A stretch of DNA of 64,000 bases, from contig NZ_CP113866.1 of assembly GCF_026914305.1 (NCBI RefSeq), forward strand, positions 1,739,501 to 1,803,500. Reading direction: 5' to 3'. The notes below the pieces were generated by a model, which worked only from the letters and a program-made list of their open reading frames with translations, did not search any database and was not told the DNA's origin. Shown here piece after piece: positions 39,604 through 52,979 of the stretch (its first letter is position 1; each line of letters opens with the position of its first letter). The stretch is from Caldicellulosiruptor acetigenus. GTDB lineage: Bacteria > Bacillota > Thermoanaerobacteria > Caldicellulosiruptorales > Caldicellulosiruptoraceae. Position numbers and translations under genes: made by a program.

Positions 39604-40474
39604 TATTAGCATTTTTTTTAGATGTATCGTAAATATATTTATCCTTCTTGTAATTCATTGGAGACACTCCATATTTTCTTTTAAACAGTCTGCTAAAATA
39701 GTTCTGGTCTTCTATTCCTACCATCTTTGAGATTTCTCCAATCGGAAGGTCTGTTGTTTCTATGAGCTCTTTTGATTTTTTGAGCCTTATATTGATGAGA
39801 TATTCCTTGAATGTCACACCAAGTTGCTTTTTAAAAAGATAACTCAAATAAGTTGGTGACAGGTACACCATTTTAGCCAAATCGTCAAGTGTTATCTCTT
39901 CCATATAATGATTTTTGATATATTCAATTATCCTTTCAATTGACGAAAGAGAAGAAATTCTTATCATCTCTGAGTCTATAATGTACTTCGCTACAATATG
40001 CATCATGTCAAGTACACTTTTCAGTTTTTCCTGGTCTATGAAGGTAAGCTTGAAAAAGCTCTCTTTTGCTCTTTGTATATCAACTGGTTGACCATCTAAT
40101 TTTTTTGCAATTTGTTCCCACATCTTTTCTGATGGCGGCTCTAAAAGAATTTGACCAATAAAAAGTGAGCCTATATAGCTTGTGTTGAAAAACAGAGGAA
40201 TAACAGCCTCAATAAGCCCCATGTGACATCTGTAAACATGTATACCCTTTTTCTTTTGAGCAGTCAGTGCACCGTTCAAATCAGATTCCCTGCACGCTTC
40301 ACCATTTTTGTAATAGTTTTTCATGATGGTGCAGAATTCGCATGTGCCTTTCTTCTTATTCTCAACCCATTTGTTGTCAGCTGTCAAAAAGTTTGCTGAG
40401 ATTCCTGTGATGTAAGAAAAGTTGTCTAAAACCGAAATCAAATCGTCATACTTGATAATCTCTTTAAAATCCAT
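39599..40474 (-). CDS. AraC family regulator with PocR sensor domain
   Basis: A 291-aa regulator. Residues about 8-165 form a PocR-type ligand-binding domain with Cys residues in CEFCTIMKNYYKNGEAC, and the C-terminal 100 residues form two AraC helix-turn-helix motifs (ITLDDLAKMVYLSPTYLSYLFKK; PIGEISKMVGIEDQNYFSRLFKRKYG). Its position just before galT suggests control of galactose genes, by inference. The DUF523 gene lies just upstream. Confidence 0.88.
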   Translation of the reverse strand: MDFKEIIKYDDLISVLDNFSYITGISANFLTADNKWVENKKKGTCEFCTIMKNYYKNGEACRESDLNGALTAQKKKGIHVYRCHMGLIEAVIPLFFNTSYIGSLFIGQILLEPPSEKMWEQIAKKLDGQPVDIQRAKESFFKLTFIDQEKLKSVLDMMHIVAKYIIDSEMIRISSLSSIERIIEYIKNHYMEEITLDDLAKMVYLSPTYLSYLFKKQLGVTFKEYLINIRLKKSKELIETTDLPIGEISKMVGIEDQNYFSRLFKRKYGVSPMNYKKDKYIYDTSKKNANT

Positions 40475-40498
40475 ATCCTCTTTACACCCTTTATAATC

Positions 40499-40915
40499 TT
40501 AATCAATACAGACCACTTTGATACCATTTTGCATGAAAACAGCCGCTGTGATGCCATTTCCTTCAACAAGTTCTCCTGAAAAGCTTCCATCATAGATTTT
40601 GCCACAGCCACAAGAAGGACTTTTAGACTTCAAAAATGCAATCTGTGCATCGAAAAACCTTGCAAGCTTTAAAGCTTCATACGCACCTTTATAAAAATTA
40701 TCGGTAAAATCATTGCCTTCTATATCTACAACCCTGCCATCTTTTATCTCACAGGGATTTCGAGGTGTTGGAAGTCCACCTAGCTGTTCAGGACAAACTG
40801 GAATTAGAATGTACTCATTTTTTAGCCTTTCAACAACTTCCTTTCTCAAATTGTTTGTCCCATCATATTTTGTGTTAAGACCTATAAGGCAACTGCTAAT
40901 AAGTGCATACCTCAT
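40499..40915 (-). CDS. DUF523 family protein
   Basis: A 138-aa protein with conserved cysteines (SSCLIGLNTKYDGTNN, the CPEQLGGLPTPR segment, and SPSCGCGKIYDG). DUF523 proteins are widespread; one homologous group is involved in thiouridine processing, but the function here is not certain. It is coupled by overlap to engB. Confidence 0.85.
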   Translation of the reverse strand: MRYALISSCLIGLNTKYDGTNNLRKEVVERLKNEYILIPVCPEQLGGLPTPRNPCEIKDGRVVDIEGNDFTDNFYKGAYEALKLARFFDAQIAFLKSKSPSCGCGKIYDGSFSGELVEGNGITAAVFMQNGIKVVCID

Positions 40916-41538
40916 TTTTTACCCTTCTCCTGCAAAATTGCCTCTTCCATAAACTTGACTATAGCATACTGAACCTGCTTTACTCCCATACCAGACTTGG
41001 CAGAGAATTGGTAAAATAGTTCCTTTTCAATCCCCAGTTCTTTTGAAATAAGCTCTGTATTTTTTGCAAGTTCATTATTCGAAAGTTTATCACACTTTGT
41101 CAGTACAATCATTATTGGAATTTCTTTTTTGTCAAAAAAGCTCAGCATTATTTTATCATCTTCTGTGGGAAGATGTCTTGAGTCTAAAAGCAAAACAGAA
41201 AGTTTTAGCTCCTGCCTTTCAAGCAGGTACTCTTCAATCATGGTTCTCCATCTTCGCTTTTCCTCTTTTGAAACCTCAGCATAACCATAACCCGGCAGGT
41301 CAACAACCCTGAATTTGTTGTCTATATTGAAAAAATTAATTGTTCGGGTCTTGCCTGGAGTTGACCCAACCTTTGCAAGCTTGTCTTTGAACACCGCATT
41401 TATAAAAGAAGATTTCCCCACGTTTGACCTTCCGCATATGCACATCTCTGGCATTTTAATTGGCGGGTAGTCCTCTTTTTTCACAGCAATCTTTTCAAGC
41501 CTTGCATTGGAAAGATTGATTTTCAAATTAGCTTTCAC
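40912..41538 (-). CDS. engB: Ribosome biogenesis GTP-binding protein EngB (YsxC)
   Basis: Essential GTPase for 50S assembly. The 208-aa product has G1 GRSNVGKSSFIN, G3 DLPGYGYAEVSK and G4 TKCDKL. The lon-engB order is common in Firmicutes. It begins 5 bases after the lon stop. Confidence 0.95.
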   Translation of the reverse strand: MKANLKINLSNARLEKIAVKKEDYPPIKMPEMCICGRSNVGKSSFINAVFKDKLAKVGSTPGKTRTINFFNIDNKFRVVDLPGYGYAEVSKEEKRRWRTMIEEYLLERQELKLSVLLLDSRHLPTEDDKIMLSFFDKKEIPIMIVLTKCDKLSNNELAKNTELISKELGIEKELFYQFSAKSGMGVKQVQYAIVKFMEEAILQEKGKK

Positions 41539-41543
41539 CCCCT

Positions 41544-43871
41544 TTACTTTACAATTGCAATATCAAATACCTCATCAATTGTCTTTACAAATATAAAGTT
41601 CATATCTTTTTTTACATAGTCTTCAAGTTCATCTACATCTTTTTTGTTTCCAAAAGGCAGGATAACATTTTTAATACCCACTCTTTTTGCTGCTAAAACC
41701 TTCTCTTTTACACCGCCAATTGGAAGTACCCTGCCGCTTAAAGTAATCTCACCGGTCATAGCAACATCGTATCTTACTTTTCTCTGTGACAATGCTGAAA
41801 CCATTGCAGTTGCCATTGTTACTCCGGCAGATGGTCCGTCTTTTGGAATAGCACCTTCCGGAACATGAATATGAATATCGCACTCTTTATAAAAGTTCTG
41901 GTCAATTCCAAGCTCCTTTGCCCTTGACCTTATAATGCTCACAGCAGCCTTTGCCGACTCTTTCATGACTTCTCCAAGCTGGCCTGTTAGCTCCAATTTG
42001 CCACTCCCTGGCATCACAAGCGCTTCGACATAGAGCGTCTCACCGCCAAAAGGTGTCCATGCAAGGCCTGTTACAATTCCAACCCTGTTCTGTTCAATCA
42101 GCTCATCTCTTCTGTACTTTCGCGCACCTAAATACTTTTCCAAATTCTTTTGAGTGACTCTTACCATCTTCTTGTTTTCTTCTAAGATTTCTTTAGCAAC
42201 ACGTCGGCAAAGCCTTGCAATTTCTCTTTCTAAGTTTCTGACACCAGACTCGCGCGTGTAGAATGCTATTATATCCTTGATAGCTTCTGGGTCACATCTT
42301 AGCTGAGATTTTTTGAGCCCGTTTTGTTCCATCTGCTTGGGCAAAAGGTACCTTCTTGCAATCTCAAGCTTCTCTTCTTCAGTATACCCTGTAATCTCAA
42401 TCACTTCAAGCCTGTCAAGAAGAGGTCTGGGGATTGTCTCAAGTGTGTTTGCTGTTGCGATGAACATTACCTCAGACAAATCAAACGGAATTTCAATATA
42501 ATGGTCGCGGAATGCAAAGTTCTGTTCACTGTCCAAGACCTCTAAAAGCGCAGACGCAGGGTCACCTCTAAAATCGTGTGACATCTTGTCAATCTCATCT
42601 AAAAGTATAAGAGGGTTTTTTGTTTTTGCCTGCCGAAGAGCATAAATAATCCTTCCTGGCATTGCACCAACATAGGTTTTCCTGTGTCCTCGTATCTCTG
42701 CCTCATCGCGAAGACCACCAAGCGAAATTCTTACATAATTTCTGTTAAGTGCACGTGCTATCGACTTTGCAATCGATGTCTTCCCAACACCAGGTGGTCC
42801 CACCAAACACAAAATAGGTCCTTTCATATTGTTTTTTAGTTTCCTTACAGCAATATACTCAAGTATCCTTTCTTTTACTTTCGTAAGCCCATAGTGGTCT
42901 TCATCAAGTACCTTTTTGACAACGTTTATATCAATCTTCTCATCACTTCTCACATTCCATGGAAGGTCAACAATCCAGTCAAGGTATGTTCTAATAACCC
43001 CAACCTCGGGTGAGTTTGGAGGCAATTTTTCAAGCCTGTCTATTTCCTTGAACACCTTTTGAAGACTTTCCTGGCTCAGTCCCAGTTTTTTGACCTGCTC
43101 TCTATATTCCTCTGCCTCAGAAAAAAGACTGTCTTTTTCACCAAGCTCGCTCTGGATTGCTTTTAGTTGTTCTCTCAGATAATACTCTTTTTGCGTTTTA
43201 TCAATTTGCTTTTTCACTTTGATAGCAATCTTTCTCTCAATCTCAATTATCTCTTTTTCTTTCAATATCATCTCATATAGCTTTGCAAGTCTTTCTTTCA
43301 AGTCAACCTTCTCAAGTAAAAGCTGTTTATCTTCAAGCTTCACAACAACATTTGCAGCTATAACATCTGCAAGCTGGTCAGGGCTTTGAATTGTAGTGAC
43401 AGACAAAATAGCATCAGGTGGAATTTTGTTTGTAAGTCTTGCAAACTCTTCAAATGCTCCAACCACATTTCTTATGAGCGCCTCTAACTCAGGGTCATCT
43501 TCTAATTTAATTTCATTTTCTTTATACTCTTCGACCTCAACCAAAAAATATGGCTCTGTTGACAGATACTTTATCACCCGTGCCCTGTAGAGCCCCTCAA
43601 CAAGTATCCTTGAAGTCTCACTCGGCAGTTTTAACATCTGCTTTACCTTTGCAACTGTGCCAAACTGATACATATCATTTGGTGTAGGCTCTTCTTGTTT
43701 TGGGTCTTTTTGAGAAAGAAGCAAAACAAGCTGGTCGTTTTCCATAGCTTGTTCTAATGCCTTAAGAGAAATCTTTCTTCCAACGTCAAAGTGAAGCATC
43801 ATGTATGGAAAAACCACAAGCCCACGCAGAGGAATCACTGGTATTGTTCTTGTAGATACTGTGCTGCTCAA
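41544..43871 (-). CDS. lon: ATP-dependent protease Lon
   Basis: Cytoplasmic AAA+ protease, 775 aa. It has the LON substrate-binding domain ([19 protein letters not shown]), AAA module with Walker [14 protein letters not shown] and ILLDEIDKM, and a Ser-Lys protease domain with the catalytic serine in [14 protein letters not shown] start (43869-43871) has GGAGG 9 bases upstream. Divergent from glpP. Confidence 0.97.
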
Positions 43872-43950
43872 ATTTTATCTGCCTCCGTTTTTATAATTTT
43901 ATTTCTGGGTGTATAATTATATTAAAAACTCTTCAAAGGAGCTAATTGCT

Positions 43951-44517
43951 ATGATTGAAAACTTGATAGACAAACTCATTCAAAATCCTATTATACCAGC
44001 TATAAGAGACAAAGCAATACTTGAATATGCAATAAATTCTGAGTGCAAAATCATTTTTCTTCTTCACTCTTCTATTTTAACCATAAAAGATGAAATTAAT
44101 ATGATAAAACAGAAAAACAAAATAGTTTTCGTCCACATAGACCTAATTGAAGGTGTGGGAAAAGATGAAAAAGGGATTGAGTTTGTGATAAACTGCGGTG
44201 CTGATGGTATTATATCAACAAAGCAAAACTTAATCAACCATGCTGCTTCTCTTTCTGTACCTTGTGTTCAAAGAATATTTTTGATAGACTCACAGTCCAT
44301 AACCTCCGGTCTTAAGATAATAGAAAATTCCAAGCCAACACTAATTGAAGTATTGCCAGGTGTTATCCCGAAGGCAATACAAAGGCTGGCCATTTCAACC
44401 ACAGTTCCAATCATTGCAGGAGGAATGATTGAAACAAAAGAAGAAGTAATCCAGGCTCTGTCTTCAGGGGCTGTAGCAATCTCAACAAGCAAACCTGCTC
44501 TTTTTTCAATCATCTGA
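43951..44517 (+). CDS. glpP: Glycerol-3-phosphate responsive antiterminator GlpP
   Basis: A 188-aa TIM-barrel-like RNA-binding regulator (NPIIPAIRDKAILEYAINS, HIDLIEGVGKDEKGIEFV, DGIISTK, IEVLPGVIPK, PIIAGGMIETKEEV). In Bacillus it binds the glpD leader with glycerol-3-phosphate and prevents termination. The ATG at 43951-43953 has AAAGGAG upstream; a longer frame is rejected. It converges on and overlaps the glp operon by 12 bases, and that operon carries a matching leader terminator (47640-47690). Confidence 0.93.
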   Translation: MIENLIDKLIQNPIIPAIRDKAILEYAINSECKIIFLLHSSILTIKDEINMIKQKNKIVFVHIDLIEGVGKDEKGIEFVINCGADGIISTKQNLINHAASLSVPCVQRIFLIDSQSITSGLKIIENSKPTLIEVLPGVIPKAIQRLAISTTVPIIAGGMIETKEEVIQALSSGAVAISTSKPALFSII

Positions 44518-44883
44518 TGAGTCTTTTTTGCCAACCTTTCTTGTTGCAATAACATCAGCACCAGTATCAAGAATATTTTTCACAATCACACTTCCTATTT
44601 CAACTGGTGCTAAAACCTCTATGCCTTTTAAGATTGAGATAGCTTCAAAAATCTTCTCCTTAGGAATAGGTAGGTTAGTTCGAACAGGCACAAACTCTAT
44701 CTCACCACTTTTAACATGGACTGTGGTTGTAAGAATTCTTTTAGGGTTTGTAAACTCTACTTTTGCCCATTCAAGCCCTCTTTTGCACCCAAATCCGGCA
44801 AACTCAAAAGTACCGCCTTGCTCCTTTTTTTCAATTGTGCAGCCTCTCGGGCAAAGAATGCATGTGACTTTATTTTCCTGCAT
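44506..44883 (-). CDS. DUF1667 Cys-rich protein of the glycerol-3-phosphate oxidation operon
   Basis: A 125-aa protein with Cys pairs (CILCPRGCTIE at residues 9-19 and CKRGLEWAKVE), likely binding a metal or Fe-S centre. DUF1667 genes typically lie after a GlpA-like dehydrogenase and a pyridine-nucleotide oxidoreductase, as here. Probably a small electron-transfer subunit. The 3' end overlaps glpP antisense. Confidence 0.88.
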   Translation of the reverse strand: MQENKVTCILCPRGCTIEKKEQGGTFEFAGFGCKRGLEWAKVEFTNPKRILTTTVHVKSGEIEFVPVRTNLPIPKEKIFEAISILKGIEVLAPVEIGSVIVKNILDTGADVIATRKVGKKDSSDD

Positions 44884-44910
44884 CTTGGATTCTTCTCTCC
44901 TTTTTAGTCT

Positions 44911-46173
44911 TTAAATGTTTTGCAAGCTTACCACAATATCATTAGAAAAATCCAGCTGAGAGAGAATCTTTTGTGAAATTTCTATACTCTCCATCTCACC
45001 GGGTGTTAGAATGCTTTTTTTGATTTTCATAAGAATCTTGCCTGCATTGGAAATAGTTACAATAGCATCTTTATAAAAATTATCTACCCTAAATCTGAGA
45101 ACAAAGGGTTGAACAAAATTTTTGTTTAGCTTTTGCGGCACGACATATCTTATACCCTCTTTTGCTACTATGTTGATATGAATATTATTTTCAAAAAGCT
45201 CAGGGTGCTGAGAATACATAGCAGCATACCTTCCTGCTGTCTGCGCCTCTAATGTAACATTGTCAACAAGGTCATGAACATGAAGAACATTTCCACAGGC
45301 AAATATACCTTTTTGTGATGTTGAAAATGTATTGTCAACAACTGGACCTCCTGTTCTCATATCAAGAACAATTCCAGCTTTTTTACTCAGTTCATTTTCA
45401 GGTATCAGCCCAACAGAAAATAGCACCGTGTCGCATTCAATAAACCTTTCTGTTGACGGAATTTCTTTCAGCTGAGAGTCCACCTTTGCAATTGTAACAC
45501 CTTCAACTCTGTATTTTCCGTGGATTTTGGTAACTTTATGAGACAAAAGAAGAGGTATCCCAAAATCATTTAAGCACTGAACAATGTTTCTTCTTAGCCC
45601 TGTAGAGTAGGGCATTATCTCCACCACTGCCTTTACCTCTATTCCCTCTAAAGTAAGACGTCTTGCCATGATAAGACCTATATCACCAGAGCCAACAATC
45701 ACTGCTTTTTTGCCAATCCTATACCCTTCAATGTTTATAAACCTCTGAGCCTGACCTGCTGTGAAAATCCCTGCAGGTCTTGTTCCAAGTGTTATTATAG
45801 CACCTCTTGTTCTCTCTCTACATCCCATTGCAAGCACAATTGAATCTGCTTTTATCCTCTTAAGCCCTTTTTTATTGACAGCCACTATCTCCTTTTGTGG
45901 GGTTATTTCTATCACATGAGTTTCGGTAAGATATTCAATTTGGTTTTCCATCACTTGTTCAATAAACCTGTGGGCATACTCAGGCCCTGTCAGTTCTTCC
46001 TTGAAGTAGTGAAGCCCAAAACCAGGATGAATGCACTGGTTTAAAATCCCTCCTAAAAATTTATCTCTCTCTATAATCAGCACTTTTTTATCATCTAAGT
46101 TCTTAAAACTTTCTAAAGCAGCCGCAAGCCCGGCTGGTCCCCCACCTATGACAACTACTTTATATTTTTCCAT
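44911..46173 (-). CDS. FAD/NAD(P)-binding oxidoreductase of glycerol-3-phosphate dehydrogenase operon
   Basis: A 420-aa two-nucleotide flavoprotein: FAD motif GGGPAGLAAA at residue 11, NAD(P) motif GSGDIGLIMARR near 160, and a C-terminal ACGNVLHVHD FAD-closing motif. It should pass electrons from the GlpA subunit to pyridine nucleotide or another carrier. Starts 1 base after the glpA stop, so the three genes form an operon. Confidence 0.88.
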   Translation of the reverse strand: MEKYKVVVIGGGPAGLAAALESFKNLDDKKVLIIERDKFLGGILNQCIHPGFGLHYFKEELTGPEYAHRFIEQVMENQIEYLTETHVIEITPQKEIVAVNKKGLKRIKADSIVLAMGCRERTRGAIITLGTRPAGIFTAGQAQRFINIEGYRIGKKAVIVGSGDIGLIMARRLTLEGIEVKAVVEIMPYSTGLRRNIVQCLNDFGIPLLLSHKVTKIHGKYRVEGVTIAKVDSQLKEIPSTERFIECDTVLFSVGLIPENELSKKAGIVLDMRTGGPVVDNTFSTSQKGIFACGNVLHVHDLVDNVTLEAQTAGRYAAMYSQHPELFENNIHINIVAKEGIRYVVPQKLNKNFVQPFVLRFRVDNFYKDAIVTISNAGKILMKIKKSILTPGEMESIEISQKILSQLDFSNDIVVSLQNI

Positions 46174-46174
46174 C

Positions 46175-47614
46175 TCAATCTTCCCACCTTTTTTCGGTCA
46201 GAATATAAGAGTTTTTCCCAAACTTTGTTATTTGAGTTTTGTCAATTTTCAGCTCTCTTGAAAGTATATCCATCACACGAGGTAGACAAAAACCGCCCTG
46301 GCACCTTCCCATACCAGCTCTTGTTCTTCTTTTGATGCTATCTAAAGTCTTTGCCCCTCTTTTTATTGCCTCAACTATCTCGTATTCAGACACAAGCTCA
46401 CACCTGCACACAATGTTTCCAAAGGTCGGATGAAGTTTAATCATCTCCTCTCTTTCTTCATCAGAAAGTTCTGAAAACCTTTTTATATCTTCTCTATAAG
46501 GATTAAAATTAAGATTTCTTTTTGCGTTTAGCTTATCTGCAACAAACTCAGCAATATACCTTCCTATTGCCACTGATGAGGTAAGACCTGGTGACTCAAT
46601 TCCTGCAACGTTTATAAAGTTTTTGACATCTTCGTCTTCTTCAATGATAAAGTCATGAGTATCTGGTGTTGCTCTGATTCCCGAAAAGATTGTTATTACA
46701 TCTCTCTTGCTTAAGTTTGGCAATACTTTCCTTGCCTTTTCAAATACCTCATCAAGCCCTTCTTGGGTTGTTGCTGTGTCATCCTTGCTATCTATATACT
46801 CGGAGTTTGGTCCAACAAGTACATTTCCATCTACAGTCGGGGTTACTAAAATTCCTTTTCCCTTTTCTGTGGGTACCTGAAAAATGACTCTGGCAACTGG
46901 CATCTTTTCTGGTTTGTCTAAGATGTAGTACTGTCCCCGTCTTGGATATATTTTGAAAAGCCTTGCTCCTGCCATTTTACTTATTTCATCTGCATGCACT
47001 CCTGCACAGTTTATTAAAACCCTGGTTTTTATAAAGCGGCTGTCCGCTGAATGAACCACAAAATAGTCTCCATCTTTTTCTATCTTGCAAACTTCAAAGC
47101 CAAATATCACATCTGCCCCATTTTGAATAGAATTTTCAAAAAGGGCGACTGTTAACTTATACGGATTTGTAATTCCAGAGTATGGAGCAAAAAGTGCTGC
47201 TTTTATATTTCTGCTCAAATTCGGCTCATTTGCAAAAACCCACTCTTGACCTTTTATCTCAAGTCCTTTGACACCATTTCTCTTTCCTCTTTGCAGGAGT
47301 TCTTCCAACACATTTATCTCATGGTCATCAAACGCAACCACAAGCGAACCAATCATCTTATACTCAACATCAAGTTCATTGCAAACATCTGCAAATATAT
47401 TGTTCCCCTCAACATTGAATCTTGCCTTTTTGGTCCCCTCAATTGGGTCATAACCTGCGTGCACTATTCCAGAGTTTGCTTTGGACGCACCTTCTGCAAC
47501 ATCTTCCATTTTTTCAAGGCTGCATACTTTTAATCTGTAACGTGTAAGCTCTCTTAAAATTGACATGCCAATAACTCCTGCTCCTATTACAGCAACATCA
47601 TAAATTCTGCTCAT
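46175..47614 (-). CDS. glpA: Glycerol-3-phosphate dehydrogenase, GlpA type with BFD [2Fe-2S] domain
   Basis: FAD-dependent enzyme oxidising glycerol-3-phosphate to dihydroxyacetone phosphate. The 479-aa product has the FAD motif GAGVIGMSILREL and a C-terminal bacterioferredoxin-like Fe-S domain with Cys in CRCE and CQGGFC, as in anaerobic GlpA-type enzymes. The ATG at 47612-47614 has AAGGGTG upstream. The leader contains a terminator presumed to be opened by GlpP. Confidence 0.9.
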   Translation of the reverse strand: MSRIYDVAVIGAGVIGMSILRELTRYRLKVCSLEKMEDVAEGASKANSGIVHAGYDPIEGTKKARFNVEGNNIFADVCNELDVEYKMIGSLVVAFDDHEINVLEELLQRGKRNGVKGLEIKGQEWVFANEPNLSRNIKAALFAPYSGITNPYKLTVALFENSIQNGADVIFGFEVCKIEKDGDYFVVHSADSRFIKTRVLINCAGVHADEISKMAGARLFKIYPRRGQYYILDKPEKMPVARVIFQVPTEKGKGILVTPTVDGNVLVGPNSEYIDSKDDTATTQEGLDEVFEKARKVLPNLSKRDVITIFSGIRATPDTHDFIIEEDEDVKNFINVAGIESPGLTSSVAIGRYIAEFVADKLNAKRNLNFNPYREDIKRFSELSDEEREEMIKLHPTFGNIVCRCELVSEYEIVEAIKRGAKTLDSIKRRTRAGMGRCQGGFCLPRVMDILSRELKIDKTQITKFGKNSYILTEKRWED

Positions 47615-47639
47615 ATTATCACCCTTTTCAAAATATGGT

Positions 47640-47690
47640 AAATAAAAAGCCTGCAAATAGCCCCTCTTTGAAAGAAGCTATTTGCAGGCT
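47640..47690 (-). terminator. Leader terminator of the glp operon, likely GlpP target
   Basis: AGCCTGCAAATAGC pairs perfectly with its complement (47648-47661 with 47677-47690; 14 bp, 15-nt loop) and is followed by TTTTTATTT before the glpA ribosome binding site. It lies between promoter 47714-47742 and the first codon, the arrangement of the Bacillus glpD leader read through with GlpP. Confidence 0.85.
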
Positions 47691-47713
47691 CTCCACATCT
47701 CTTGCCAAGCTTT

Positions 47714-47742
47714 ATTTTAAGACAATTCAATCAAAAAATCAA
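47714..47742 (-). promoter_or_regulatory. SigA-type promoter of the glp operon
   Basis: TTGATT (47737-47742) and TAAAAT (47714-47719) are spaced by 17 bases on the minus strand. The predicted leader is about 93 bases. Confidence 0.75.
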
Positions 47743-47773
47743 TAAAAATTTTTTAAAAGCCTTGCCACAAACT

Positions 47774-47944
47774 CTATGTTTGGTCCATGCTGGTCAGAAC
47801 GTTATCAAAATAGTTTATATCGCACTTTTTCCCGTCCCAGTGAATACAGACATCACAGCTTATATCCCCTTTGTGAGAGTATCCACCATCGTTAAACTCC
47901 GGACACAATTTTGCAACTGCTCTTTGCTGTTCCTTGCTTGCCAT
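47774..47944 (-). CDS. Small Cys-rich protein, possible metal-binding
   Basis: A 56-aa acidic/polar protein (start ATG 47942-47944, AGGGGTG about 9 bases upstream). Four cysteines are arranged as CPEF and C-x2-C-x6-C (in SCDVCIHWDGKKCD), suggesting a small zinc or iron site. The pattern resembles small uncharacterised Firmicutes proteins; I cannot name a family. It stands alone upstream of the glp promoter. Confidence 0.6.
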   Translation of the reverse strand: MASKEQQRAVAKLCPEFNDGGYSHKGDISCDVCIHWDGKKCDINYFDNVLTSMDQT

Positions 47945-48041
47945 GTTTTTTATCACCCCTGACTTGGTCTTAAAATACTTTCTATAATAAATAACTTTTC
48001 CTGTGAAGATGGTCTTTTATACGTCTTTAACACAAAATATG

Positions 48042-48050
48042 TGCTATAAT
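48042..48050 (+). promoter_or_regulatory. Extended -10 promoter for the alcohol dehydrogenase gene
   Basis: TGCTATAAT (TG-N-TATAAT) lies about 48 bases before the start codon, with no good -35. Confidence 0.5.
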
Positions 48051-48097
48051 TTATTTTAAAGCACAAATAGTATAGTACTGTGAAGGAGGCCTTGAAA

Positions 48098-49192
48098 ATG
48101 AGCAAATTTTTCTTGCCAACAAAGGTCATATTTGAAAAAGATGGTGTTTTGAAGAATAAAGACCTTTTCAAGCTTGGCAAAAGAGCCTTCATCGTGACAT
48201 CTCCATCTTCTCTGATGAACGGCTCCTTAGAAGATGTGACAACTGTATTAAAGGAACTTTCAATTGAATATTCAATATACAGCAAAATCGCTCAAAACCC
48301 AAGCGTAGAACAGATAGATGAAGTTTCAAAATTGGCAAGAGAGTTTTCCCCAGATTTTATAATTGGAATTGGTGGAGGTTCTCCTCTTGACTCATCAAAG
48401 GCAGTAGCAGTGCTGTGTGCAGAAAAGGATTTAAAAGCTCAAGACCTTTTTGACTCAAAATTCGAAAAGTGCTTACCTATAGTTGCAATTCCAACAACAT
48501 GTGGTACAGGAAGTGAAGTTACTCCCTATTCAATCTTGACATTGAAAACCATTGAAAACAAGAGGAGTTTTGCTTCTGAACTCATTTTCCCAAAAGTAGC
48601 AATAGTTGATTACAAGTATCTATTGACACTTCCTTTCGGAGTTATTGTAAACACACTTTTTGACGCTCTTTCTCACGTAATTGAAGGGTATCTTTCCAAA
48701 GCCTCTGACCACATTATTGAAGCTTATGCTAAAAAAGCCTTGAGCCTGTTTGAAAGCTCAAAAGACAATCTGAAAGAGAACGCTTTAAAAGAAGCTGACC
48801 TTGAAAAGTTTGCATGGATATCATTGATTGGTGGAATAATCATTGCACAGACAGGTACTTTAATTGTTCATCCTTTAGGATACAACCTTACTTATTATCA
48901 CGACATTCCACACGGAAGAGCAAATGCAATCTTACTTTCAAGCTTTTTGAAACTTGAGAGCAAATATTTAAAAGAGGAAGTAAGCTTTGTTCTAAACTGC
49001 ATGGGCTTTGAGAGTTTAGATGAGTTTTCTGAGTTTGTAAGATTTTTTGTTAAAGACTCTATTCCAAATTTGACAAGCGACAAAATCGAATATTATGCAA
49101 AAAGAGCGCTTGAGTCTAAAAATGTTTCAAACTTAAAACATGCAATCTCGCTTGAAGAAATGATAGATGTTTTGAAAGGTTCGGTTGAGTAA
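48098..49192 (+). CDS. Iron-containing alcohol dehydrogenase
   Basis: Group III NAD(P)-dependent alcohol dehydrogenase, 364 aa. The nucleotide motif GGGSPLDSSKA is followed by iron-ligand segments (DALSHVIEGYLS; HPLGYNLTYYHDIPHGRANA). The substrate is not predictable. The ATG at 48098-48100 has GAAGGAGG upstream; an earlier GTG lies inside that site. It precedes an azoreductase. Confidence 0.92.
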   Translation: MSKFFLPTKVIFEKDGVLKNKDLFKLGKRAFIVTSPSSLMNGSLEDVTTVLKELSIEYSIYSKIAQNPSVEQIDEVSKLAREFSPDFIIGIGGGSPLDSSKAVAVLCAEKDLKAQDLFDSKFEKCLPIVAIPTTCGTGSEVTPYSILTLKTIENKRSFASELIFPKVAIVDYKYLLTLPFGVIVNTLFDALSHVIEGYLSKASDHIIEAYAKKALSLFESSKDNLKENALKEADLEKFAWISLIGGIIIAQTGTLIVHPLGYNLTYYHDIPHGRANAILLSSFLKLESKYLKEEVSFVLNCMGFESLDEFSEFVRFFVKDSIPNLTSDKIEYYAKRALESKNVSNLKHAISLEEMIDVLKGSVE

Positions 49193-49276
49193 TTCAAAAT
49201 AAATTCATAGTTATATAATCGATTTACAAGGGTATAATATAATCAAGAAAATTATCTATGTAAGGAGAAGTTCAGA

Positions 49277-49882
49277 ATGGCAAAGCTACTGTATATAAAG
49301 GCTAATCCAAAGAGCGACCAAAGTTCAAGGACATTTATAATCTCAGAACATTTTATAAAGGTATACAAAGAGTTTCACCCAAATGATGAAATTATTACTT
49401 TGGACCTTTACAAAGAAGGAATTCATTTTCTCACTGCAGAGGATATCAACGATATATTTGCTCCAAAGACTGAGTCTTCTAAAAATCATCCTATTTTGAA
49501 GTATGCTTATCAGTTTCTTGAAGCTGATAAGTACGTGTTTGCAGCACCTATGTGGAATTTGAGCATTCCTGCAATCCTCAAGGCGTATATAGACTACATC
49601 ACAGTTTCAGGAATAACATTTAAATACACCGAACAAGGTGCTGTTGGACTTTTAAAAGGCAAAAAAGCAGTCCACATCATGGCAACAGGTGGAGAATACA
49701 AAACACCGCCATTTTCGGACTTTGAAATGGCAAATAGATACCTTAAAACAATCTTAGGATTCATGGGAGTGGATGATTTTCAGCTAATTTCAGCTCAACG
49801 GCTTGACATTGTGGGTGAGGATGTAGAAAAGATTATTTCAAACGTATTGAAAGAGGCTGAGGAGATAGCAAAAAGGTTTTGA
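49277..49882 (+). CDS. azoR: FMN-dependent NADH-azoreductase/quinone reductase
   Basis: Flavodoxin-like NAD(P)H-dependent oxidoreductase of 201 aa. It has the FMN-phosphate loop KANPKSDQSSR, PMWNLSIPAILKAYIDYI (typical of AzoR/quinone reductases), and MATGGEY. AGGAGAAG precedes the ATG. It may protect against quinones; transcription ends at 49917-49962. Confidence 0.9.
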   Translation: MAKLLYIKANPKSDQSSRTFIISEHFIKVYKEFHPNDEIITLDLYKEGIHFLTAEDINDIFAPKTESSKNHPILKYAYQFLEADKYVFAAPMWNLSIPAILKAYIDYITVSGITFKYTEQGAVGLLKGKKAVHIMATGGEYKTPPFSDFEMANRYLKTILGFMGVDDFQLISAQRLDIVGEDVEKIISNVLKEAEEIAKRF

Positions 49883-49916
49883 AAATGCGAAGCATGGAAA
49901 AATATGCACTAAATAG

Positions 49917-49962
49917 AAAAGGGGCTCTCTGCAATCTCGGTGGATGTAGCCCCTTTTGTTTT
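49917..49962. terminator. Terminator after azoR, usable from both sides
   Basis: AAAAGGGGCT pairs with AGCCCCTTTT (49917-49926 with 49948-49957), loop 21 bases, T-rich on both flanks. Confidence 0.8.
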
Positions 49963-49989
49963 GATTGAGAAATATTATTATAACTTTTT

Positions 49990-50442
49990 AATACAAATTT
50001 TGTTATTTTATATCATCAATTTTATACTCCTTTATTCCACTGTCACTTCTAATCTGAATAGAATTATCAGTAAACGTCATTGCTCCAGTTTCTTTGTCCC
50101 ATTTTACTCTTTTATTTATTACAATCTTTTCATCTTTAACTTTGCCTATATTAAGCTTCACTTCATCTTCAGCATTTATATCTTTCGTGTAGAATGCAAT
50201 ATCATTATTTTCAGATATATAAGGACCTTTGAGAATACTTTCACTATCAGATGTTTCAAAAATGACCTGGTCATTTTTATAAATCTTTTCTCTGCCTTTC
50301 AGATTTAAAAAATGTGGTTTCGGCAAAGCATAATAAATATTTTCTTTCCGACTATCCCAAGCAAATCCTATCCCATAATACTCTTTTACTTTTTGTAATT
50401 TATTTGCATCAAGCAAACAATAGACATCCAAGCTTGGATTAA
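49990..50442 (-). repeat. 453-bp direct duplicate, copy 1 (other copy 53448-53900)
   Basis: By eye, 451 of 453 bases equal 53448-53900, in the same orientation. The copy starts 13 bases beyond the stop codon of the duplicated gene and ends abruptly 11 bases from the stop of the 399-aa gene next to it. Confidence 0.95.
50003..50431 (-). pseudogene. 3' fragment of the 279-aa membrane-anchored protein gene
   Basis: This encodes the last 142 residues of the product of 53461-54300, without start, membrane anchor or promoter. It begins where the duplication joins the 399-aa gene and has only an unlikely TTG to start from. The reading frame is intact, so the event looks recent. It may still be co-transcribed with the 399-aa gene. 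Confidence 0.9.
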
Positions 50443-50452
50443 TATAAAAGCT

Positions 50453-51652
50453 TCACTTTGAAATCACATCATAACTTACAATACCGCCTTTTATCTGAAA
50501 TAATAGTTCAATCTTTTTATTTCTTAGTCTATAAATATTGGTGTCAAAAATTTTATTAGGTATAAATGACTGATAGTTTCTGTCAATAAAATAAATTGTT
50601 TTATCATTTCCATATATCGGCCAATAGGCATTAATATCTTTGGGCACATCATTAACAATCTCCAACTTTCCAGTATTAAGGTCAAGAATAACCGGTTTTG
50701 ATCTAAATGGGTCAATAATAGAAGAATAATCCCCAAATTCTCGATATTCTGGTTCTCCCTGTGCAAACATGTATTTATCATTTGAAATAAAGAAACCTGG
50801 TGAGTTGCATAAACCTGTATTTCCAGAAAATTCTCTTACAGTTCCGCTTTTTAAGTTTACAGCCATTAGATATACATATGGTGGAGATGCCGATGAGGAG
50901 GTGCTAATTACAACCCACTTATTATCGTTGCTTATGGCAGTAGAAAATATCAATCTATAATCTTGTGTCAAGGGTAAATTACCTATTTTTTCAGAGATAA
51001 TCTTTTTCTTTGTATTATTCTGCAAATCAATCAAAACAAACGATGTAGCTGAATAGTTTTCCTTATTGTTATTTTCCCCACACACTATATATCTGCTATC
51101 ACACGAAAGAGACGGCCAGCAAAATTTACCTTCTGCTATACGTGCCAATATGAAAGGAGATTTTTTCTCATTACCCTGTTTTTTCTGATATTTCAATACA
51201 TACAGTGCTTTTTCAGTGGCTATTACAAATTCTTCTTTTTCCTTGTTTACATTAATAAACTCAACCCTCTCATTTAGGTCCTGCCTACATACTTCTTTTT
51301 TGGTTTTATAATCAACCAGAATTATTTCTTTGAAATTTTGTGTATAAGCTACATAATTTTTTCCCCATGCAAAAAATCGACGTGGAAAAAGCGTAAAATT
51401 CTTGTCAATCTCAGCATCAGTTGTTTTGAATTTGAACAACAAATCGTCATTTCCACGGCTGTCAACTAGTCTTCCCTCAAACTCTCTACCATATAACACA
51501 TTTCGATTTTTGTTATTTAATACTTTTACATATCCAATTTTTTCAATGCCTAATTGAAAATATGCATACAAAAATCCAAGTAAAACTATTGCAAATAATA
51601 TCAGCCCAGCAAAAAGAAGCTTTTTTATAGTAACTTTGTTATTTGACTTCAT
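50453..51652 (-). CDS. Membrane-anchored beta-propeller-like protein
   Basis: A 399-aa protein with an N-terminal membrane segment (about 11-31, LLFAGLILFAIVLLGFLYAYF) and a long beta-rich extracytoplasmic part. It has repeats such as SCDSRYIVCGENNN, ISNDNKWVVISTS and ISNDKYMFAQGE, typical of TolB/WD40-like propellers. No catalytic motif is seen. GGATGTG precedes the ATG. Similar in plan, though not in sequence by eye, to the 279-aa protein at 53461. Confidence 0.7.
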   Translation of the reverse strand: MKSNNKVTIKKLLFAGLILFAIVLLGFLYAYFQLGIEKIGYVKVLNNKNRNVLYGREFEGRLVDSRGNDDLLFKFKTTDAEIDKNFTLFPRRFFAWGKNYVAYTQNFKEIILVDYKTKKEVCRQDLNERVEFINVNKEKEEFVIATEKALYVLKYQKKQGNEKKSPFILARIAEGKFCWPSLSCDSRYIVCGENNNKENYSATSFVLIDLQNNTKKKIISEKIGNLPLTQDYRLIFSTAISNDNKWVVISTSSSASPPYVYLMAVNLKSGTVREFSGNTGLCNSPGFFISNDKYMFAQGEPEYREFGDYSSIIDPFRSKPVILDLNTGKLEIVNDVPKDINAYWPIYGNDKTIYFIDRNYQSFIPNKIFDTNIYRLRNKKIELLFQIKGGIVSYDVISK

Positions 51653-51866
51653 TATTCACATCCTTTCTCTTTTTTGATATAAAATTTAATTAAATTTTAC
51701 TTTAATACTAATCTATTTAATACGTTTGCAATAAATTTGCTTAAAATCTTAAACCTAATAATTTAAACTTAAAAAATATGAAAATCCTCCCTTGTGGTCA
51801 ATTAAATATATAAACACAAAAGAGGCATCATTTTTATGCATAATGCAAATTAACAAAAAAATATAT
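51653..51866. other. Intergenic region with possible terminator and weak promoter
   Basis: Between the NlpC/P60-like gene and the 399-aa gene. It holds the hairpin at 51786-51825 and a very AT-rich stretch with a TTGCAA (near 51728-51733) followed by weak -10-like strings on the minus strand. No coding region is visible. Confidence 0.5.
51786..51825 (-). terminator. Possible terminator after the NlpC/P60-like gene
   Basis: CCTCTTTTGTG can pair with CACAAGGGAGG (two G-U pairs) around an 18-nt loop; an ATTTTCATATTTTTT run follows on the minus strand. Confidence 0.5.
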
Positions 51867-52979
51867 TTAATTTGTCACAAAAAGACATTTGTATGCACCA
51901 TATGAACCTTCTACATCAGACTTGCTTCGTGCACGATGGATAACTCGATCATAACCTCCAGTTGTGCTCTCATATACTATATAGTTGCCATAAGCATCCC
52001 TTTGATAAAATAGCATAGCATGACCACTGTTACATAAAGCGTCTCCTTTTTGCAAAGCAATGAAACTGATTTTACTGCAATATTTCATTATGTCATAAGT
52101 ACTCCATCTACCAGACATCCCCCAGCATTTACTAACAAAACCTGCACAATCGACCCCAGTTGTTCCATCCAAATATGAACTAGTATTAGTATAAACATTT
52201 CCTGCAGCATAACCATCCTTAATTTTCTGTTCAAACTCTGATAGAGAGTGTCCTCCACCCCAACAATATGGCACCTGATAATAGTAAGTATTATACGATG
52301 TTATAAAACTTGGTCTTCGCCACAAATTAGAATTTGCGGCCTTTGAACCATCATAATTTTGTTTTGAACAATACCATTTGTAATTATTGTATTGGAAAGC
52401 AGTTGACATTATTTGGTCTCTCGTTATACTTGAAGCACTTACAGTATATTTAGTTTGCTCCGTAAATTGTATTGTTTCGTTTTTGCTCTCGATTAAATTT
52501 ACTCTACTTTCTACAGATTCTGTGTACTTCATATATTGTGCACTTGTCATCCATGAATCCACTTTTAATACATACACATTCTTTTCACACGGCAACAATA
52601 CAAAGATATCATCGCCTTCAAGAACCGCATCACTCATTGGGAAATAATATTTACCATCTGGAATCTTAACAAGTCCTTCAATATTCTTTGTTTTTGAATT
52701 TAACTTGACTATCCATTCACCGTAATCGTTAGTTATCTTCCAGAATTGAATAAAACCTCTCTTACCAATATAATCATAAGCACAATCTTCATTAACAAGC
52801 CATCTTGGAAATTCAAAAGCTTCACTTGCATCTACGCTCGCTTTACAAGCAGAAGCTTTTACTTCACTCACGCTTCCATCAGACGAAAATACTCCTTCTC
52901 TTTCTTCTGCTACATACAACTTACTTTTGTTGATATCTTTAGCTAAAAAACATGTTGTCATTTTGTCTCCAGAAAGCAC
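51867..52979 (-). CDS. NlpC/P60-like (papain-fold) protein, 5' end lost
   Basis: About 370 aa. The C-terminal half carries a papain-like peptidase core: catalytic Cys in GVDCAGFVSKCWG and His in SGHAMLFYQRD, with a CWGGGHSLSEFEQKI lead-in typical of NlpC/P60-type cell wall enzymes. The N-terminal half is a beta-rich, propeller-like segment. There is no signal peptide. The open frame continues upstream to 53012, exactly where the 61-bp repeat starts, so the true 5' end seems to be gone. Starts at 52979 (GTG) or 52961 (ATG, GGAG 5 bases upstream) might still give a cytoplasmic product. Confidence 0.7.
   Translation of the reverse strand: MLSGDKMTTCFLAKDINKSKLYVAEEREGVFSSDGSVSEVKASACKASVDASEAFEFPRWLVNEDCAYDYIGKRGFIQFWKITNDYGEWIVKLNSKTKNIEGLVKIPDGKYYFPMSDAVLEGDDIFVLLPCEKNVYVLKVDSWMTSAQYMKYTESVESRVNLIESKNETIQFTEQTKYTVSASSITRDQIMSTAFQYNNYKWYCSKQNYDGSKAANSNLWRRPSFITSYNTYYYQVPYCWGGGHSLSEFEQKIKDGYAAGNVYTNTSSYLDGTTGVDCAGFVSKCWGMSGRWSTYDIMKYCSKISFIALQKGDALCNSGHAMLFYQRDAYGNYIVYESTTGGYDRVIHRARSKSDVEGSYGAYKCLFVTN

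Follow-up and report, generated by a model that had tools for sequence, protein, structure and literature searches.

Architecture of the glpA leader and operon

The locus described here raises the question of whether the hairpin that stands between a promoter and a glpA-type gene in Caldicellulosiruptor acetigenus is a transcription attenuator controlled by GlpP, as held by an original prediction of a GlpP-type antitermination leader. According to the dates in reference lists, the description of GlpP goes back to the 1990s, and GlpP antitermination as a kind of system is already known from Bacillus subtilis. The window, i.e., the whole stretch of 64,000 nucleotides that was analyzed, contains the following parts of the leader and of the adjoining genes.

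47714 to 47742, minus strand: promoter, with -35 hexamer TTGATT (47742-47737), 17-nt spacer and -10 hexamer TAAAAT (47719-47714); 9/12 match to consensus, hexamers kept in genus leaders
47704 to 47706, minus strand: GGC, proposed as 5' arm of an antiterminator stem (P1), from flank/terminator-arm covariation across GlpP leaders; 3 bp only in this leader
47690 to 47702, minus strand: GlpP element AGAGA-TGT-GGAGA, placed by prediction inside the loop of P1; conservation seen among the compared leaders of glpA, glpF and glpD
47687 to 47689, minus strand: proposed 3' arm (GCC) of P1, common to the terminator 5' arm, from covariation
47641 to 47690, minus strand: intrinsic terminator, 14-bp perfect stem and U-run, from sequence, terminator scan and RNA fold
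46175 to 47614, minus strand: glpA-type FAD G3P oxidoreductase with C-terminal BFD [2Fe-2S] domain (NF033460, 342.8 bits, under cut-off; DAO, Fer2_BFD)
44911 to 46173, minus strand: Pyr_redox_2 FAD/NAD oxidoreductase, second operon gene, from domain match
44506 to 44883, minus strand: DUF1667 protein, third operon gene, from domain match
43951 to 44517, plus strand: glpP (GlpP1), convergent, 3' end overlapping the DUF1667 gene by 12 nt (PF04309, E 1.6e-60; 3kts, E 1.2e-31)
43890 to 43917, plus strand: promoter-like site for glpP, TTTATA-16-TATAAT, 10/12 match to consensus

Read on the minus strand from 47742 to 47612, the leader consists of the promoter, GGC-AAGAGATGTGGAGA-GCC, an inverted repeat with a U-run, an RBS-like stretch and an ATG; an intrinsic terminator thus lies between a promoter and a G3P gene, as in a GlpP-type antitermination system. 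The inverted repeat, AGCCTGCAAATAGC / GCTATTTGCAGGCT, is perfect over 14 bp (47690-47677 and 47661-47648) and is followed by TTTTTATTT, so that the hairpin and U-run of the original prediction can be read directly in the sequence, as can the glpA ribosome binding site placed after them (RBS-like AAAAGGGTG, ahead of the glpA-type ATG at 47614). The terminator scan counted 20 pairs, including G-U, in this hairpin (20 being the maximum of the scan), and the leader RNA folded at -37.2 kcal/mol, against -18.8 +/- 2.7 kcal/mol for its shuffles (z -6.9; none of the 200 reached this stability). To call the promoter "clear" was generous, since it matches consensus at 9 of 12 positions and sites of the grade of TTGATT-17-TAAAAT are common (28 found versus 17.9 expected between 43000 and 50000 of the window), but both hexamers are retained in 11 of 11 genus leaders (L053-L063) although the spacer drifts. 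Upstream of this promoter lies a 56-residue coding stretch on the same strand (47774-47944, minus), which has four cysteines and ends NYFDNVLTSMDQT; the same end is also present in a related genus (G012).

The operon content given in the original prediction (GlpA, FAD oxidoreductase, DUF1667) was borne out by domain matches. The "anaerobic GlpA" label is loose, because the glpA-type protein scores best against type 2 G3P oxidase (NF033460, 342.8 bits, cut-off 460) and reaches 153 bits against anaerobic GlpA (TIGR03377, cut-off 552.8), passing neither cut-off. The genome encodes GlpP twice, once in the window, where the closest solved chains to GlpP1 are 3kts and 1vkf, and once at G000:C1:225664. 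As predicted, glpP in the window lies past the 3' end of the operon and reads toward it. In 6 of the 6 genus loci checked, the window's included, the tail-to-tail overlap of glpP with the DUF1667 gene measures 4 or 12 nt; in G012 the two ends miss by one base. The overlap at 44506-44517 leaves no space for a terminator between the two genes, and the convergent arrangement may add antisense interference. In another genome of the genus (G007), transposase-like genes split glpP and the entire glpA operon is gone (L084 5104-7323); this joint loss was dropped as independent evidence, as it is probably a single insertion/deletion event.

The GAGA element and its link to GlpP

Directly 5' of its terminator, the leader carries RGAGA-N3-GGAGA, and relatives have RGAGA-N(2-5)-GGAGA ahead of an intrinsic terminator, the arms of which vary from clade to clade. 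The comparison of leaders in relatives that the original prediction had proposed as a check placed the element and terminator ahead of glpA in all 30 short loci (L053-L082; regex scan) and in 8 of 13 longer ones (L083, L085, L086, L088, L089, L093, L095 and L096, the elements of L088 and L095 having been spotted by eye alone), with 43 of 45 glpA places inspected. The five longer loci without an element are L087, L092, L098, L099 and L090, the last being a second glpA copy in a GlpP-positive genome. The other four belong to the only genomes of the set that have glpA without a credible GlpP (G021, G031, G043 and G048; a 3.4e-4 fragment in G021 is the sole trace), so that the element is absent at glpA in 4 of 4 such genomes. 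Having a glpA-type gene as target is usual among the relatives examined and not a peculiarity.

The element also follows GlpP on a wider scale. A covariance model (R2), built from 26 sequences that include six leaders of relatives, was run against 299 genomes from the phylum (completeness of 95% or more requested) with thresholds of E <= 1e-3 for R2 and E <= 1e-20 for PF04309. R2 matched 58 genomes and GlpP was present in 117: both were found in 57, R2 alone in 1 (G161), GlpP alone in 60 and neither in 181. The one-sided Fisher value of 4.9e-27 is indicative, the genomes being non-independent and R2 having been trained on sequences from at least two of them (G000 and G045). At least three of the R2-negative genomes with GlpP (G037, G044 and G052) do have the element, which the model missed. 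Among named GlpP loci, the best 80 of 531 (mostly Bacilli, 1.58 Mb) gave 44 strict-scan matches in 37 loci, versus 0 in reversed sequences; in the same best 80, the loose scan gave no row for 40 loci, and within the stretch around glpP the element was found in 0 of 13 Listeria loci. In Alkalihalobacillus macyae (L126), the order is glpP-[element]-MIP (glpF)-FGGY glycerol kinase-like-[element]-DAO/DAO_C glpD-like, and these element positions correspond to the glpFK and glpD targets of B. subtilis; the window's leader thus has in common with the Bacilli compared an element found before glpF and glpD.

The tools differ in what they recover in the genome studied. Of the three elements assigned to this genome, two escape the strict scan, that of glpA2 (P1 score 7) and that of the SBP leader (large branched apex); R2 recovers the former (9.3e-8) and fails to recover the latter. 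Three more R2 matches in this genome (0.017-0.046) and weak ones in G021, G031 and G048 (0.02-0.06) were treated as noise, and the 13-nt motif by itself, with 2 mismatches allowed, was useless genome-wide (71 matches versus 53 for the reversed pattern).

These observations bear on two other explanations of the hairpin. Any terminator looks like a perfect stem with a U-run, and with a 56-residue coding stretch ending at 47774 on the same strand, the hairpin could be an ordinary terminator serving this small gene or stopping stray transcription, with glpA controlled otherwise. We consider this very improbable, given that the promoter sits between the small gene and the hairpin, and that neither the GAGA element nor its tie to GlpP nor its absence at GlpP-less glpA loci is expected of a plain terminator; the explanation was rejected because it leaves the element unexplained. 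Alternatively, a compact conserved loop joined to a terminator might be a riboswitch, in which the RNA itself senses a metabolite and GlpP is incidental. This is scarcely credible: GlpP is found in 57 of 58 element-bearing genomes, the conserved stretch measures ~13 nt with little further structure, and Rfam 15 gave no family at gathering score in the stretches searched, namely, positions 40000-52000 of the window and loci L126, L170 and L187. A known Rfam RNA was likewise rejected, the four weak matches in the window being to snoRNA/miRNA families far under their gathering scores. The GlpP-type antitermination leader is strongly supported by the conservation of the element, by its occurrence together with GlpP and by its absence at GlpP-less glpA loci.

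Covariation of the upstream flank with the terminator arm

The terminator 5' arm begins with bases complementary to those directly 5' of the element, and the two sets covary (e.g., ACGGAAC/GTTCCGT, TATGGT/ACCATA, CTGTGA/TCACAG and GAGGACTT/AAGTCCTC). Starting sites numbered 48, of which 16 came from L001-L102 (14 by scan, plus L095:5341 and L088:2058 by eye) and the others were 32 of 48 loose-scan rows, look-alikes being excluded by eye; a 70% identity rule reduced the 48 to 37 non-redundant sites. MAFFT alignments A1, A2 and A3 were out of register and A4 was used in their place; alignments A6 and A7 contained reverse-strand palindrome rows and were left unused in favor of A8. Across the 37 sites, the matched pairing score was 12.27 versus 7.82 for permuted partners (standard deviation of the mean, 0.43), a score reached in 0 of 20,000 permutations, and the count was again 0 of 20,000 both for the 15 clostridial sites alone and for the remaining 22 alone. 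When each flank was shuffled within its own letters, 0 of 5,000 shuffles reached the observed score, while a control flank 20 nt farther upstream gave 1,264 of 20,000. One site, L126:15062, just 3' of glpD, is probably an ordinary terminator, and the result is unchanged without it. In a replication on 12 sites (16 loci from covariance model matches, reduced by the 70% identity rule), the count was 45 of 20,000, with 4,806 of 20,000 for the upstream control; these sites were picked by a model that contains the flank columns, at least one (L229, from G016) belongs to a genome that had been examined earlier, and L215 is similar to L096.

The simplest reading of this pattern is an antiterminator hairpin, P1, which would use a terminator arm as its own, exclude the terminator and hold both GAGA motifs in its loop. 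P1 has 4 or more contiguous pairs in 30 of the 37 sites and fewer in 7. In the window's own leader it consists of three G-C pairs only (GGC/GCC), and in the leader of glpA2 it is also 3 bp; a covarying alternative pairing is thus present in the family and weak in this leader taken alone, for which the case rests on the family because its own P1 is just GGC/GCC. When folded alone, six of six leaders prefer the terminator, as would be expected if the P1 model holds, because GlpP would then have to stabilize P1.

That the GAGA element is much more conserved than P1, and that P1 is so short in the window, would suit a GlpP acting without an antiterminator hairpin, which would bind the unpaired GAGA repeats together with the base of the stem and block the terminator through its bulk or through RNA polymerase contact. 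We regard this as unlikely, though with some chance of being right, in view of the covariation (0 of 20,000 on 37 sites, 0 of 5,000 own-letter shuffles and 45 of 20,000 in replication) and of the 30 sites with at least 4 contiguous P1 pairs, which speak for the hairpin.

A second GlpP locus

The second GlpP copy belongs to a locus of different composition.

G000:C1:225631-240285 (L023 7631-16653 and L083 3501-12285): second locus, with glpP2, sugar ABC transporter, lipase-like gene, LacZ, broken glpK, glpA2 and hydrolase
G000:C1:225664-226182: glpP2 (PF04309)

A perfect promoter, TTGACA-17-TATAAT, lies 3' of glpP2, and the SBP leader has a predicted P1 of 6 bp (GAGAAC/GTTCTC) followed by a terminator (fold z -4.7). 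After this leader come the SBP gene, two BPD_transp_1 permeases and a lipase-like protein, apparently secreted as judged by eye (Lipase_3, E 0.00027, 21.3 bits versus a cut-off of 22). The LacZ-type beta-galactosidase has GH2 and Bgal_small_N domains and matches NCBIfam equivalogs strongly, under cut-off; it is followed by the broken glpK, another element, glpA2, a Pyr_redox_2 gene, a DUF1667-like frame and an alpha/beta hydrolase. A hairpin after the SBP gene (L015 ~1505-1550), preceded by GAAATTTGGAGAG, was rejected as a GlpP site for having neither a U-run nor an evident flank complement; this SBP/permease intercistronic hairpin with its GAGA-like prefix may be an mRNA processing/stability element.

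Among the loci compared, the closest glp relative is L182, from a Thermoanaerobacterales MAG (60% identity in GlpP2, 79% in GlpK and 65% in GlpA2), where the order is glpP-[element]-MIP (glpF)-glpK-[element]-glpA-Pyr_redox-DUF1667 and the first element begins inside the last codons of glpP. The second locus was likely gained horizontally, and its glpF appears to have been replaced by the sugar ABC transporter, the lipase-like gene and LacZ. A candidate function, read from the context in this single genome, is uptake of galactosylglycerol from galactolipids. Homologs of the transporter in six other genomes (L243-L248) had no GlpP gene and no element within the 19 to 20 kb around them, and the literature yielded nothing relevant on galactosylglycerol and no paper on galactolipids in Caldicellulosiruptor.

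Two copies of GlpP leave a choice of regulator for the window's leader. Both are full-length PF04309 proteins, and the core element is nearly identical at the two loci, so that GlpP2, or both proteins, might serve this leader in place of the convergent GlpP1. This is quite improbable, as ten other genomes of the genus with a single GlpP keep the same leader, and GlpP2 groups with the Thermoanaerobacterales protein of L182 (tree support, 100/97; 19 rows) and not with the genus.

Proposed mechanism and comparison with known systems

The glpA leader is very probably a G3P-responsive transcription attenuator worked by GlpP, and the comparison suggests P1 as the means. Observed directly are the parts of the leader sequence, the conservation of the element, its occurrence together with GlpP and the flank-arm covariation. 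By default, RNA polymerase would start near 47707, transcribe the GGC-to-GCC segment and then the strong hairpin, and stop in the U-run around 47645. GlpP bound to G3P, presumably GlpP1 rather than GlpP2, would grip both GAGA motifs in the nascent RNA and stabilize the short P1, in which the 5' flank pairs with the start of the terminator 5' arm; with this arm engaged in P1, no terminator would form and the glpA, Pyr_redox and DUF1667 genes would be transcribed, so that G3P would putatively be oxidized to DHAP. The signal, G3P, is known for B. subtilis GlpP and is taken over here by analogy. The two GAGA motifs may perhaps, as a speculation, correspond one to each subunit of a GlpP dimer.

The statement in the original prediction that the Bacillus target of GlpP is the glpD leader was too narrow: PMC9604022 names three promoters activated by B. 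subtilis GlpP (glpD, glpT and glpFK), and reports control of glpF, glpK and glpD. As described there, the glpD, glpFK and glpTQ leaders resemble the present one in having a PF04309 regulator, a terminator just past the promoter and G3P-linked targets (PMC9604022), and the Bacillus-type cluster of A. macyae has the same GAGA element before glpF and glpD. Unlike in B. subtilis, the target here is a glpA/Pyr_redox/DUF1667 operon with glpP convergent at its 3' end, and a recognizable glycerol kinase is missing from 10 of the 12 genomes of the genus, the copy here being broken. In outline, the BglG/SacY/LicT proteins with their RAT RNA are also similar, as a protein-stabilized hairpin overlaps the terminator, and so is the ANTAR protein EutV, with a hairpin overlapping the terminator and loops read by sequence (PMC3369931), although EutV requires two tandem hairpins with hexanucleotide loops, whereas a single hairpin is predicted here. 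The regulator in the present case belongs to PF04309, unlike the BglG family. The predicted loop of ~13 to 15 nt with two GAGA motifs presumably also differs from RAT.

No description of P1 or of a structural rule for GlpP-read RNA was found in the portions of the literature that were searched; P1 may already be in print in the original work on the system (Glatz 1996, Glatz 1998, Darbon 2002), which lay outside that set.

Signal and significance

Glycerol kinase (TIGR01311, E <= 1e-100) was matched in 2 of the 12 genus genomes, the other 10 having no match at this threshold, below which weaker kinases could fall. The single match in the genome studied is broken, with 443 of 496 profile positions and a TGA (L083 6702-8027), and a remnant of the C-terminus lies in another frame. 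GDPD (PF03009) had no match in this genome. Because intact glycerol kinase and GDPD matches are missing, G3P may come here mainly from DHAP or lipid turnover. The glycerol shift proposed with the original prediction may perhaps be the wrong test, since most of the genus is without a glycerol kinase match and the one here is cut short; G3P, not glycerol, would be the signal to consider.

A broader reading combines two proposals: (i) GlpP works through an unclassified RNA element, consisting of P1 (4 to 8 bp in 30 of 37 sites) with its 3' arm common to the terminator and a loop of ~13 to 15 nt with two GAGA motifs; and (ii) a horizontally gained copy of the system was redeployed in this organism, where G3P would control the entry of glycerol in the form of galactosylglycerol derived from plant galactolipids. 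We put the combination forward tentatively, as a serious but still somewhat doubtful possibility.

To conclude, a GlpP system has been retained in a genus where most genomes have no recognizable glycerol kinase. The element, together with the covarying hairpin, permits sequence-based prediction of GlpP regulons across Bacillota and gives the exact mutations with which the mechanism can be probed.
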